From contig CAJVZC010000009.1 of NCBI GenBank assembly GCA_913019935.1, positions 1 to 34,688 on the forward strand: a stretch of 34,688 bases of DNA. The letters run 5' to 3'. Positions 24,350-28,788 of the stretch are shown in pieces. Source of the stretch: an uncultured Methylococcales bacterium (GTDB taxonomy: Bacteria; Pseudomonadota; Gammaproteobacteria; Methylococcales; Methylomonadaceae). Every line of letters starts with the position of its first letter. Positions within the stretch are counted from its first letter, which is position 1. The notes below the pieces were generated by a model, which worked only from the letters and a program-made list of their open reading frames with translations, was not told the DNA's origin and searched no databases. The translations under genes were made by a program, and so were the position numbers.

Positions 24350-25318
24350 ATGGGTAAGAAAATAAACCGGACAGTCTGTGTGGCGCCGATGATGGATTGG
24401 ACAGATAAGCATTGTCGTTTCTTTCACCGTTTAATTTCTAAGCATACGGTGTTATACAGTGAAATGATAACGAGCAATGCGTTATTACACGGAAATAGAG
24501 ACACGTTGTTAGCCTTTGAGCCGTGCGAGTCTCCCATTGCTTTACAATTAGGGGGTTCTGATCCCAAGGCTTTAGCAGAGTGCAGCGTGATTGCCGAAGA
24601 TTTTGGTTATGATGAAATAAACCTTAATGTGGGTTGTCCGAGTGACCGTGTGCAAAATGGTCGTTTTGGTGCCTGTTTAATGGCAGAGCCAGAAACAGTA
24701 GCAGAATGCATTTTTGAAATGCAAAACAAAGTGAATATTCCGGTGACGGTTAAAAACAGGATTGGGATTGATGGTCAAGAAACATACCATGATTTATCTG
24801 CCTTTATAGAAACGGTTGCACAAGGCGGCTGTGAGGTTTTTATTATCCATGCTCGGATCGCGGTATTAACTGGGTTGTCGCCTAAGCAAAATAGAGTCAT
24901 TCCTCCTCTGAATTATGCTTATGTTAATCAGATAAAGGCGGCATTTCCTGCTTTGGAGATTATTGGTAACGGTGGCGTTCAAACCTTGAATCAAATGGAG
25001 ACACATTTACAAAATCTTGATGGCGTTATGATTGGTCGGGAGGCTTATCACAACCCTTATTTGCTTTCAGCGGTTGACGCTTGTTTTTATCATGACCCAG
25101 TGCCTTGTTTAACACGTCGTGAAGTTGTTGAGGCCATGATTCCTTATATCCAGAAGCATTTAGCAACAGGGGGCCGTTTAAATCAAATAACACGTCATTT
25201 GTTAGGCTTGTTCCATGGTGTTTCTGGTGCAAGAAGATGGCGGCGTTATTTAAGTGAAAATGCACATAAAGACGGTGTGAATGAATCTGTGGTGTTAACA
25301 GCTTTAGATTATGTCTAA
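24350..25318 (+). CDS. dusA: tRNA-dihydrouridine(20/20a) synthase DusA
   Basis: A flavoenzyme that reduces uridine 20 and 20a in the tRNA D-loop. The 322-residue TIM-barrel protein has VAPMMDWTDKHCR at 11-23 and the catalytic Cys96 in NVGCPSDRVQ. FMN contacts are suggested by VKNRIG and GNGG, followed by GVMIGREAYHNPYL. The wording is that of DusA, not DusB or DusC. One oddity is the stretch after the conserved HAR, which reads HARIAVLTGLSPKQNR. DusA proteins I remember have HARKAWL at this place, so Lys and Trp are replaced. No clear Shine-Dalgarno precedes the ATG. The 230-base gap upstream holds nothing I can identify. Confidence 0.95.
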   Translation: MGKKINRTVCVAPMMDWTDKHCRFFHRLISKHTVLYSEMITSNALLHGNRDTLLAFEPCESPIALQLGGSDPKALAECSVIAEDFGYDEINLNVGCPSDRVQNGRFGACLMAEPETVAECIFEMQNKVNIPVTVKNRIGIDGQETYHDLSAFIETVAQGGCEVFIIHARIAVLTGLSPKQNRVIPPLNYAYVNQIKAAFPALEIIGNGGVQTLNQMETHLQNLDGVMIGREAYHNPYLLSAVDACFYHDPVPCLTRREVVEAMIPYIQKHLATGGRLNQITRHLLGLFHGVSGARRWRRYLSENAHKDGVNESVVLTALDYV

Positions 25319-25382: not shown

Positions 25383-25928
25383 ATGGAAGATTATTTTTCA
25401 AAAATCATTGAATCTGTGGGTGAAGATATTAACCGTGAAGGATTGATTGATACCCCGAAGCGTGCAGCAAAAGCATTTCAATTTTTAAACAACGGCTATA
25501 ATAAAAGCCTTGATGAGGTACTCAATAATGCGATTTTTGAGGCTGATAGTGATGACATGGTTATTGTGAAGAATATTGAAATGTATTCTTTATGCGAACA
25601 TCACTTATTACCTTTTATTGGGCAGTGTCATATTGGTTATTTGCCACGTAAAAAAGTGATTGGATTGTCTAAAATCGCCCGTATTGTGGATATGTATTCG
25701 CGACGGATGCAAATTCAAGAACGCCTTACAAAACAGATTGCAACTGCCATCGGTGAGGCTGTTGATGCCCGAGGCGTTGCTGTTGTTATTGAGGCAAAGC
25801 ATCTTTGTATGATGATGAGAGGCGTTGAAAAACAAAATTCGGTGATGGCAACTTCAGCAATGACCGGTATTTTTCGTGATGAACTCAATACGCGAATGGA
25901 ATTTTTAAATTTAATTAAAGATCGGTAG
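25383..25928 (+). CDS. folE: GTP cyclohydrolase I
   Basis: Converts GTP to dihydroneopterin triphosphate, the first step of folate synthesis. The 181-residue length is typical. The zinc ligands are Cys71 and His74 (in [10 protein letters not shown]) and Cys142 (in [10 protein letters not shown]). The stretch [15 protein letters not shown] and the end [10 protein letters not shown] are diagnostic of the homodecameric type I enzyme. PreQ0, the substrate of QueF, also derives from this product, so FolE and QueF act in linked pathways although the genes lie far apart here. Confidence 0.97.
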
Positions 25929-25977: not shown

Positions 25978-27585
25978 ATGAAAAAAACGGTGATGGCATC
26001 TTGGGGAGATCAACCCGCTAAAATACGTTGTGTTAAGTCAGGCGATGTTGGCGAAGGCGTTATTGATGCCTCTACTTTTGAAACTTTAGAGGTAGATGAA
26101 TTATTTGATACGGTTAATTATGCAACCACTACTTTTGGTCAATCAGTATTATATCGTTCGCTGATTCAGCCTGAAGAATCATTCACTGCAGTTACAGAGA
26201 AACAAGGTGCGGTTACTGAGATTCAGGGAAATGAGGCCTTAAAAGAAAAAATAACCCATACGGTTGATCAAGTCAAAGAGCATGAGGATCGATTGTTGCA
26301 ATTATTGTATGGGCAATTTTCAGGGCTGTTTGGCTCGAATAATGAAGATAACGTGGTTGATGGTTATGGGTATATGCCGTATCGGACAGGCACACGAACG
26401 GTATTGCAATTAGTGGATAATATCAACCAGATGCCTGCTGTCGATAATGCTTATCTGAAGCACTTGTTTGATACCATAAAATCTTTTTCACAGACGCGTC
26501 AATATGGGTTAATGAAAGGCCCGGTCTACGTTAGAGAGCATTCTATTCAATCTAAACATGAGCGTTCGGGCTCTTTTATGCCGGCCATGATTTTTAAACC
26601 AACATTGCTTAAGCCTCTTTTTATTGCTTTGCTTTTTATAGTTATTTGGTTATTAGATCAATTTAATCCTTTGACTGCCAGTGACGCGGCATTTAGCTTG
26701 AGTTTTGACCCTTCTTTTTTTGTGATGTTTTTACCGCTAGCCTTGTTATATATACCGGTGATAGGGGCCTTTGATAGGGATCATTGTATTTACCCGCTGC
26801 GTGATGAATTTAGAGGTTCTGACAATGTTCAAAATACGTTAGATGCTTTAGGTCAGTTAGATGAGTTACTTTCGTTTATTAAGTTAAAAGAGGATTATCC
26901 ATCGGCAATGGTTATGCCGAAAGTGGTTGATAAAAAGCACTATGAAGTCAACCTAACGCAGGCGGTTAATCCTATTTTAGGAAAGACTATTAACAATTAT
27001 GTTGGTAATGATTTTAGTTTACAGAAAGATCGGCTAGCTTTTATAACAGGCCCTAACAGCGGGGGGAAAACTGCTTTTTGTAAAACGTTAACGCAAATCC
27101 AATTGCTCTCGCAAATAGGGTGTTTTGTACCGGCAGCAGCGGCGTCTTTAACTATTGCCGATAGAATTTATTATCAAGTGCCGGTGATTAGCCAGTTAGA
27201 TGATGGTGAAGGGCGCTTTGGTACTGAACTTAAAAGAACCAAAAATATTTTTTTATCTTCTACAGCAAAGAGCTTGGTCGTTTTAGATGAATTATCCGAA
27301 GGGACTACTTTTGAGGAAAGAATAGAAACCGGTCGGAATGTCATGGAAGGATTTTTAAAGAAAGGAAATGGCACTATTCTCATTACCCATAATCATCAGT
27401 TAGTTGATGATTTTTTTCAGCGATCTATTGGTTTGCCTTGTCAGGTTGAATTTAAACATGAGGAGCCTAGCTTTAGATTGATTGCGGGTATTTCACGTAA
27501 TAGTCATGCAGATCGCGTCGCTAAAAAGGTCGGTTTTTCTAAGAGTGATATTGAAAATTACTTAAAACAAGACGGTGATCTGTAA
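25978..27585 (+). CDS. Membrane-spanning MutS-like ATPase
   Basis: A 535-residue protein with a MutS-type ATPase at its C-terminus. Walker A is GPNSGGKT (358-365), the signature-like segment DGEGRFGTELKRTKNIF spans 409-425, and Walker B is LVVLDELSEGT (433-443). ITHNH (469-473) holds the switch histidine. The N-terminal 200 residues look helical, like a shortened MutS core/lever region. The mismatch-binding domain I, with its Phe-x-Glu, is absent. Two hydrophobic segments at about 211-226 and 247-264 interrupt the lever region and probably form a membrane hairpin. This makes it one of the membrane-linked MutS-like proteins, not the mismatch-repair MutS. A good Shine-Dalgarno (GAGGGA) precedes the ATG. 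The function is unknown; a role in mismatch repair is unlikely. Confidence 0.8.
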   Translation: MKKTVMASWGDQPAKIRCVKSGDVGEGVIDASTFETLEVDELFDTVNYATTTFGQSVLYRSLIQPEESFTAVTEKQGAVTEIQGNEALKEKITHTVDQVKEHEDRLLQLLYGQFSGLFGSNNEDNVVDGYGYMPYRTGTRTVLQLVDNINQMPAVDNAYLKHLFDTIKSFSQTRQYGLMKGPVYVREHSIQSKHERSGSFMPAMIFKPTLLKPLFIALLFIVIWLLDQFNPLTASDAAFSLSFDPSFFVMFLPLALLYIPVIGAFDRDHCIYPLRDEFRGSDNVQNTLDALGQLDELLSFIKLKEDYPSAMVMPKVVDKKHYEVNLTQAVNPILGKTINNYVGNDFSLQKDRLAFITGPNSGGKTAFCKTLTQIQLLSQIGCFVPAAAASLTIADRIYYQVPVISQLDDGEGRFGTELKRTKNIFLSSTAKSLVVLDELSEGTTFEERIETGRNVMEGFLKKGNGTILITHNHQLVDDFFQRSIGLPCQVEFKHEEPSFRLIAGISRNSHADRVAKKVGFSKSDIENYLKQDGDL

Positions 27586-27728
27586 TACATAAAGCGTTTT
27601 TTACTAGCCATTTTGCCGTTTTTTATGGGTTATCAGGCTTGTAATATGTCCTAGTGTTACTAATTTTACATTAATTTAGTGAGCTTAAGAATCTCGTCAG
27701 CTATGAGGTTCTTTGTAGATAGATTAAT

Positions 27729-27732
27729 GGGG
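27729..27732 (+). promoter_or_regulatory. Ribosome binding site deciding the HD-GYP gene start
   Basis: GGGG lies six bases before the ATG at 27739. The in-frame GTG at 27679 and ATG at 27727 lack such a site. Confidence 0.45.
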
Positions 27733-27738
27733 TTGAGC

Positions 27739-28788
27739 ATGAGTTGGGAAAATAAAAAAACTGACAATGGCGTTGTGCTTGTCGTTGATGATGCCATTGA
27801 GAACATTATGGTTATTGAAGCCATATTAGAGCAAGAGTATTGCGTTCTATCTGCAGAAAATGGTCAACAAGCAATTGATATTTGTTTAGAAGAACGCCCG
27901 CCCGATTTACTTTTACTTGATGTAGAAATGCCTGGTTTAGATGGTTTTCAGGTCTGTCGTTTTTTAAAAAATGACCCTAGAACAGTCAAGATTCCGATTA
28001 TTTTCGTGACCAGTCATACTGATAAACACGCCGAAGCCTCTGGGTTTAGTGAGGGCGGTGTAGATTTTATACCCAAGCCGATTGATGTTAATGTTCTTAA
28101 GGCTAGAGTGAAGACACATATCAATTTATCGAAAACGGAGCGATTATTAGAATCAAAGGTGCAACAACGCACAGAAGCGTTAGCGCAAGCTCAGTCAGAA
28201 GTATTGTATGCATTAGCACGTGCGGGTGAGTATAAGGATAACGAAACCGGAGCACATGTGCACAGAATGAGTCGTTATGCCAAAATTATAGCGAGTAAGG
28301 TGATTAAAAATAAAGAATGGCTGGAAGCACTTTTAGTCGCGGCACCGATGCATGATCTCGGAAAAATTGGTATTCCCGATGTCATCATGCTCAAACAAGG
28401 ACCGTTAGATGCTAATGAATGGGAAGTCATGAAAACTCACCCCCAGGTGGGCAATGAAATTATTGGCAATAATAATCACTCTGAGGTCATGCTGTTAGCA
28501 AAAGAGATCGCTTCTGGGCATCATGAGAAGTGGGATGGAAGTGGCTACCCGTTAGGTTTGAGTGGCGAAGATATCCCGTTTTCTGCACGGGTAGTTGCTC
28601 TGGCCGATGTTTTTGATGCTTTGACATCGAAGCGGCCTTATAAAGAGGCTTGGTCCGTAGAGAAGGCCGTTAATTGTATCGATGAATCTTTTGGCCAGCA
28701 TTTTGATCCTAGTTTGGCGGAGCCGTTTCATCAGGCTTTAGCTGAAATGCTGAACGTAAAAGAAGCCTTCAAGGACGCTGTAGATTAA
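27739..28788 (+). CDS. Two-component response regulator with HD-GYP domain (probable c-di-GMP phosphodiesterase)
   Basis: From ATG 27739 it has 349 residues; the frame is open back to a GTG at 27679. The receiver domain (about 10-128) has the acidic pair DD at 17-18, phospho-acceptor Asp61 in LLDVEMPG and Lys113. A charged helix (about 131-160) links it to an HD-GYP domain (about 160-345) with HDLGKIGIPD at 205-214 and HHEKWDGSGYP at 261-271. These residues bind the metals and c-di-GMP in active family members, so degradation of c-di-GMP after phosphorylation is likely. No partner histidine kinase is adjacent. It converges with maf, with 12 bases between the two stops. Confidence 0.93.
   Translation: MSWENKKTDNGVVLVVDDAIENIMVIEAILEQEYCVLSAENGQQAIDICLEERPPDLLLLDVEMPGLDGFQVCRFLKNDPRTVKIPIIFVTSHTDKHAEASGFSEGGVDFIPKPIDVNVLKARVKTHINLSKTERLLESKVQQRTEALAQAQSEVLYALARAGEYKDNETGAHVHRMSRYAKIIASKVIKNKEWLEALLVAAPMHDLGKIGIPDVIMLKQGPLDANEWEVMKTHPQVGNEIIGNNNHSEVMLLAKEIASGHHEKWDGSGYPLGLSGEDIPFSARVVALADVFDALTSKRPYKEAWSVEKAVNCIDESFGQHFDPSLAEPFHQALAEMLNVKEAFKDAVD

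Follow-up and report, generated by a model that had tools for sequence, protein, structure and literature searches.

A MutS-like ATPase family with a predicted membrane hairpin at the clamp position, found in lineages that carry copper membrane monooxygenases

The stretch of DNA analysed here (34,688 nt of contig CAJVZC010000009.1 from an uncultured Methylococcales bacterium, hereafter the window) was found to encode a 535-aa MutS-like protein at 25978-27585 of the forward strand, which is probably a membrane-anchored MutS-type ATPase. Sequence comparison supported its placement in a distinct family of membrane MutS proteins that forms a clade of its own, and a hairpin of two hydrophobic segments, together with its position at the place of the MutS clamp, was well supported at the sequence level. 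In the genomes sampled, the gene was seen only in three lineages with copper membrane monooxygenases (CuMMO), an order and two families; this restriction is new here and had been missed in the original prediction. The ATPase and lever engine of MutS appears to have been re-used with a membrane hairpin in place of the clamp. As judged from PF02461 (the CuMMO A subunit, taken as the CuMMO marker) and from record names, the carrier lineages presumably oxidise methane, hydrocarbons or ammonia. Even if the CuMMO link carried no function, labelling members of this family as mismatch repair proteins would probably be misleading.

The gene started with ATG and had no internal stops, and the reverse frame opposite to it was full of stops. 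Its membership in the MutS superfamily followed from the Pfam match of MutS_V (domain V, the ATPase) at residues 355-522 (27040-27543), with an E-value of 4.7e-27 and 95.6 bits against a cut-off of 30.2, and a MutS_III match at residues 41-300 (E=3e-7) stayed below its cut-off with 31.4 vs 34.1 bits. The MutS-type motifs named in the original prediction were all located, namely Walker A (GPNSGGKT, residues 358-365, 27049-27072), Walker B (VVLDE within VVLDELSEGT, residues 434-438, 27277-27291) and a switch-type histidine, H471 (27388-27390), which was invariant in 34/34 family sequences. The lack of a mismatch-recognition domain was borne out as well, as neither MutS_I nor MutS_II gave a Pfam match in the protein, both being present in the MutS1 controls (L057, L124). 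Smr was likewise unmatched by Pfam and was present in the MutS2 control (L116). MutS_IV had no Pfam match in the protein and none in the same MutS2 control, so its absence is no proof of an absent clamp. The NCBIfam equivalogs for MutS (TIGR01070; score 103.5, cut-off 641.7) and MutS2 (TIGR01069; score 102.5, cut-off 400) both scored far below their cut-offs, and the protein was therefore assigned to neither MutS1 nor MutS2; the best PDB match by sequence was a MutS2 (7vuf, E 8.7e-24). Residues 30-200 (26065-26577) made up a domain III-like N-terminal half of the MutS core with two family-specific motifs, GYGY (129-132) and GPVY (181-184). A return arm of lever-like helices (residues 266-306, 26773-26895), beginning with D266 and carrying a PLR motif at 273-275, formed the joint between the hairpin and the ATPase.

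The two hydrophobic segments, originally placed at about 211-226 and 247-264, were found by hydropathy at residues 208-226 (26599-26655) and 247-265 (26716-26772), separated by a poorly conserved, K/R-poor and predicted periplasmic loop (residues 227-246, 26656-26715). Their Kyte-Doolittle 19-residue means were 2.26 and 2.34, and their Wimley-White octanol sums were -14.2 and -13.9, respectively. Twenty proteins of the window served as the yardstick: the FeoB spans ranged from 1.82 to 2.66 and from -6.8 to -16.3, the ZipA span gave 2.88 and -8.2, and the extremes of the presumed soluble proteins, reached by different proteins, were 1.86 (AroA) and -6.2 (SerC). A third segment after Walker A (376-394; 1.64 and -2.5) had an octanol sum that was not membrane-like. 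Counting the window's own protein, the family set comprised 41 distinct sequences; with strict cut-offs both segments were present in 37 of them and one segment in the other four, and with relaxed cut-offs the pair was seen in 40/41. The pair is conserved in the homologues. Among the proteins of family f181 the pair was found in 10/11 with strict cut-offs, the eleventh showing it at relaxed ones (11/11). Across 40 family sequences the mean number of K/R was 2.95 in the 15 aa before the hairpin, 0.33 in the loop and 2.45 in the 15 aa after it, with no K/R at all in the loop of 28/40; by the positive-inside rule both hairpin flanks should therefore be cytoplasmic. K212, at the start of the first segment, and D266, just past the second, were invariant in 34/34, and the loop was variable. 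The hairpin (residues 205-268) is under strong purifying selection, its dN/dS against three close relatives being 0.026, 0.074 and 0.059 vs 0.094, 0.089 and 0.140 for the whole gene. That the segments are buried helices of a soluble protein, as the four sequences with a single strict segment might suggest, is very improbable, since their hydropathy falls within the FeoB/ZipA range, their charge bias agrees with the positive-inside rule, and strict-cut-off segments were absent from all 52 MutS1 and all 3 MutS2 sequences.

The original prediction had the hairpin inserted ahead of the ATPase domain; the hairpin itself is conserved, but the alignments put it at the place of the DNA clamp (domain IV) and not just somewhere before the ATPase. 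In the profile-profile alignment with 52 MutS1 sequences (probability 99.9, 454 columns, residues 24-527), the hairpin faced the template's clamp region (MutS_IV, 390-481 of L057), where the hhalign columns were not confident, and MAFFT inserted it within the MutS1 clamp. According to PMC12292046, MutS1 and MutS2 have the domain order core-clamp-core-ATPase, and the MutS2 clamp contacts DNA and the ribosome. A first AlphaFold model, made from a five-row alignment without MutS1, was poor (pLDDT 42.6). The second reached pLDDT 66.7 and pTM 0.66, with a weak hairpin (pLDDT 43-63 per block), and matched MutS and MutS2 chains in the PDB (best Foldseek E 2.4e-19); the 50 VIA-align rows listed had Z-scores of 25.2-31.5, those of MutS/MSH spanning 25.2-31.5 and those of MutS2 26.6-29.5. 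This likeness to MutS is biased and partly built in, because 16/22 rows of the alignment were MutS1.

In a tree of the ATPase part of 47 proteins, the family formed one clade (100/100), apart from MutS1 (93/96), MutS2 (100/99) and a membrane-bearing Bacteroidota/Staphylococcus clade (100/99). The family paired with MutS2 (92/81) on long branches and fell outside the MutS2 clade itself; several stems of this tree were long, and the tool warned that long-branch joins may be false. At the signature-like loop (residues 412-417, 27211-27228, located by alignment), Gly412-Arg413-Phe414 and E417 were invariant in the family (34/34 aligned for Gly-Arg-Phe). MutS1 has a Ser-Thr-Phe motif plus E at the aligned position, with Ser-Thr-Phe in 52/52. 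In E. coli MutS, the signature-loop serine touches the ATP of the partner subunit. That an invariant Gly-Arg replaces Ser-Thr here suggests that the contact in trans with ATP is built differently.

From the homology to MutS, the protein would be expected to dimerise through domain V, the dimer would close upon ATP binding, and the core and lever would pass this movement on to the hairpin. The mechanical output would then act within the inner or intracytoplasmic membrane, along its plane, and not on a DNA clamp. The coupling of ATP-driven motion to something at the envelope, as originally proposed, may hold by the same analogy, and we consider a membrane protein complex in these organisms to be a likelier substrate than mismatched DNA.

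The distribution of the gene was determined in genomes of its own phylum. The window genome is 65.55% complete (1.02 Mb), and the named relatives at 92-95% identity were Methylococcaceae/Methylococcales genomes, including OPU3_GD_OMZ; a Cycloclasticus symbiont had a relative of 41% identity. The gene was present in 54/61 genomes of its own order (in G023 as short fragments only) and absent from seven, in 5/274 genomes of the class sample (three of the own order plus G088 and G233, both of family f36), and in 2/398 genomes of the phylum sample (the window genome itself and G422, of f181). At most five candidates per genome were scored in the class sample and at most three in the phylum sample, where the cut-off was E 1e-30, and fragments may therefore have escaped detection. 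In f181 the gene was carried by 99/120 genomes, with 76/80 in genus g269, 23/23 in g458, 0/9 in g457 and 0/8 in g459. The small-genome members g457 and g459, in which the gene was absent 17/17, had PF02461 in 5/17. Two gene copies were seen in each of two genomes (G049 of f8, G059 of f7), and two copies of the gene (8920-10624 of L212, contig C66 of G233, and 6053-7663 of L015) were apparently frameshifted, by assembly error or decay.

A role on mobile elements was considered and rejected, as no family member was present among the plasmid records (108 matched) or the phage records (31 matched), none of the matches covering at least 80%. The viral collection gave one fragment relative (L018) and one family member (L117, IMGVR_UViG_3300009746_000005); the contig end of the latter reads dus-folE-hemH-gene, as in methanotroph chromosomes, and we read it as host DNA. 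The scan of this collection was also the source of MutS1 rows, 80/336 being kept. An antiphage role was likewise rejected, the PADLOC matches being weak and limited to the Walker A region (mad8 7.3e-4, LmuB 0.028).

PF02461 was matched in 8/274 genomes of the class sample and, over the cut-off, in 2/398 of the phylum sample. Outside the own order (654 genomes, the union of the samples), all three carriers of the MutS-like gene were among the eight genomes with PF02461 (hypergeometric 1.2e-6 with kinship ignored, two of the three carriers being of one family), and the other five (G070, G197, G272, G309, G506) had PF02461 without the gene. Among the 61 genomes of the own order, 45 had both, 9 the gene only, 6 PF02461 only and 1 neither; co-occurrence within the order was set aside as uninformative for a CuMMO link. 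In f181, whose members are presumably ammonia oxidisers as judged in part from this marker, PF02461 was present in 67 of the 120 genomes; 62 had both, 37 had the gene without PF02461, 5 had PF02461 without the gene and 16 had neither. The gene-only and the PF02461-only genomes show that neither gene requires the other. The own, incomplete genome was among the nine carriers of the order without a PF02461 match, and carriers without one that were rated 100% complete included G007 and G051; the PF02461-less carriers might, as a guess, reflect assembly gaps at repeated operons.

It is quite possible, if somewhat short of probable, that the association with CuMMO reflects shared ancestry or gene exchange within a niche, and that the function is unrelated, such as a general part in envelope stress or one in lipids. 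The genus-level pattern in f181, seen although all four genera show PF02461, and the absence of the gene from 7/61 genomes of the order are in line with this, but chance alone is an unlikely cause, given how rarely the gene occurs elsewhere.

A functional link, in which the protein would use ATP to help assemble or reactivate CuMMO of the pMMO/AMO type, or the intracytoplasmic membranes in which these enzymes sit, is proposed by analogy with KamC and appears unlikely. The overlap outside the order, the presence of PF02461 in 45/54 carriers of the order and 62/99 of f181, and the match to the KamC model (E=5e-26, far below cut-off in score) point towards it, as does the finding of a PF02461 gene and the MutS-like gene on one 13.4-kb contig of G233. 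On the other side, 9/54 carriers of the order and 37/99 of f181 had no PF02461 match, 6/7 non-carriers of the order, 5/21 of f181 and the five genomes outside the order named above had PF02461 without the gene, and the gene lay outside pmo/amo operons in all loci read. On the G233 contig (L212), positions 159-2952 contain in succession the PF02461 gene, a PmoB/AmoB-like ORF (assigned by eye) and the gene of a 187-aa protein that had no Pfam match. The more exact proposal, that a MutS motor with the clamp exchanged for a hairpin is a dedicated factor for the assembly, remodelling or reactivation of pMMO/AMO or of the membrane stacks, is rather unlikely, and it is put forward because of the distribution only. 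Active pMMO and AMO are difficult to obtain outside the organisms that make them. If the link were functional, the family would be a testable candidate for the maintenance machinery of pMMO/AMO, and if the protein were such a factor it would be their missing helper.

Co-evolution with PmoA was assessed by a mirror-tree analysis, with MutS1 as the species proxy, and the outcome was discarded as evidence. The partial correlation of the window's family with PmoA was 0.526 (p 0.0002, 18 genomes); within the own order it was 0.804, and 0.299 (p 0.034) without f7 and f8. For control genes near mutS, labelled by eye, the values were 0.518 (RseP), 0.665 (DsbC), 0.556 (CdsA), 0.301 (Dxr) and -0.331 (UppS), and those of the family protein in the matching subsets were 0.134, 0.789, -0.134, 0.172 and -0.069 in the same order. 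The signal was therefore unspecific, and it was not used because unrelated control genes behaved alike.

The protein could alternatively be a DNA-acting MutS paralogue that is just tethered to the membrane, for instance a nucleoid or recombination factor, which we likewise regard as unlikely. The solved relatives found are the DNA-acting MutS/MSH and MutS2, whose core and ATPase it keeps, and PMC12292046 describes MutS2 as acting also on ribosomes. Against this, the clamp appears to be replaced by the hairpin, domains I and II went undetected, and genus mates (G002-G004) have a separate MutS-like ORF of ~860 aa.

The gene neighbourhood was inspected for possible partners. Upstream on the same strand lie dus (dihydrouridine synthase, 24350-25318) and, with a gap of 49 bp, folE (GTP cyclohydrolase I, 25383-25928), and downstream an HD-GYP response regulator (27679-28788). 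The setting between folE and a c-di-GMP regulator without evident operon partners, as originally described, was only partly general: in the own genus the order was dus-folE-gene-HD-GYP-maf, but HD-GYP was directly downstream in that genus only among the loci read. Other f1 genomes commonly showed folE-hemH-gene-purT-transglycosylase (Pfam on L019), with purT as the next gene in 9/13 of those read and overlapping by 4 nt in 8 of these 9; in G422 of f181, purT lay ~3 kb downstream. The search for a recurring neighbour, which would have marked a membrane family with a common partner, turned up no gene that came back from family to family among those read, in loci where many neighbours were left unannotated, and no operon partner can therefore be named. 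This lack of a recurrent partner gene that would indicate a membrane substrate counts against the membrane-anchored motor.

A partnership with tripartite efflux pumps or with another envelope transport system (MacAB-TolC, RND, ABC) would fit several of these settings and is improbable. In f181, macA-lolD-macB lay within three genes in 7/7 g269 loci (Pfam on L215) and a TolC-sized (outer-membrane-factor) gene upstream in 4/4 g458 loci (OEP by Pfam in L225); f36 had an ABC/GldG-like cluster in 2/2 loci, with mutM by eye in 2/2, and in f7 an AcrB/HlyD pair was 4-5 genes away in L037, L041 and L044, with homologues around L042 of f8. However, none of the f1 loci read had genes assigned to such systems, nor had L017 and L045 of f7 or L038 and L043 of f8; pumps of this kind are common, and each setting amounts to one syntenic event.

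Returning to the membrane-anchored motor, we compared the protein with known MutS-like systems; among the matches listed, no report of a membrane MutS, or of a MutS with CuMMO, was found in the open-access literature. NCBI names KamC (NF052383, a 508-position model) a MutS-like reactivase for lysine 5,6-aminomutase; it offers, by name only, a non-DNA precedent. The window protein matched this model over 281-477 with a score of 91.5 vs a cut-off of 300 and is thus not a KamC equivalog, and inspection of the window ORFs by eye revealed no lysine 5,6-aminomutase genes. MutS1/MSH proteins share with the family protein the core and the ATPase with Walker A and B, whereas the family protein has no detected domains I/II, has Gly-Arg for Ser-Thr and has a membrane hairpin. 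MutS2 (T. thermophilus 7vuf/7vuk, B. subtilis 7qv3) likewise lacks domains I/II and consists of core plus ATPase, 7vuk aligning to the second model with a Z-score of 29.1 across 361 residues; the family protein differs in having no Smr match, a hairpin at the clamp position and a separate clade.

The last group comprises proteins of Bacteroidota and Staphylococcus annotated as 'MutS family DNA mismatch repair protein' (L111, L113, L118-L121; Flammeovirga L112), with a MutS ATPase and membrane segments. Those of L111, L113 and L119-L121 (Bacteroidota) are MutS-like proteins of ~600 aa with 3-5 membrane-like segments and belong to a second membrane MutS clade, and a Staphylococcus epidermidis plasmid (L118, 2787-4397) encodes a MutS-like protein with three hydrophobic segments that is annotated as DNA mismatch repair; 13 staphylococcal plasmid records matched the ATPase part of P0002, L118 being the one examined. 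P0002 gave no match at E 1e-25 in 94 class genomes, in a search without positive control, and the viral collection held nothing for the Bacteroidota protein. These proteins have 2-5 segments, N-terminal ones included, whereas the window protein has no N-terminal segment, and in the Bacteroidota proteins the stretch from the internal segments to Walker A is longer than in the window's family. They share with it hydrophobic segments that follow the N-terminal part and precede the ATPase, and membrane segments are thus not unique to the window's family among MutS-like proteins.
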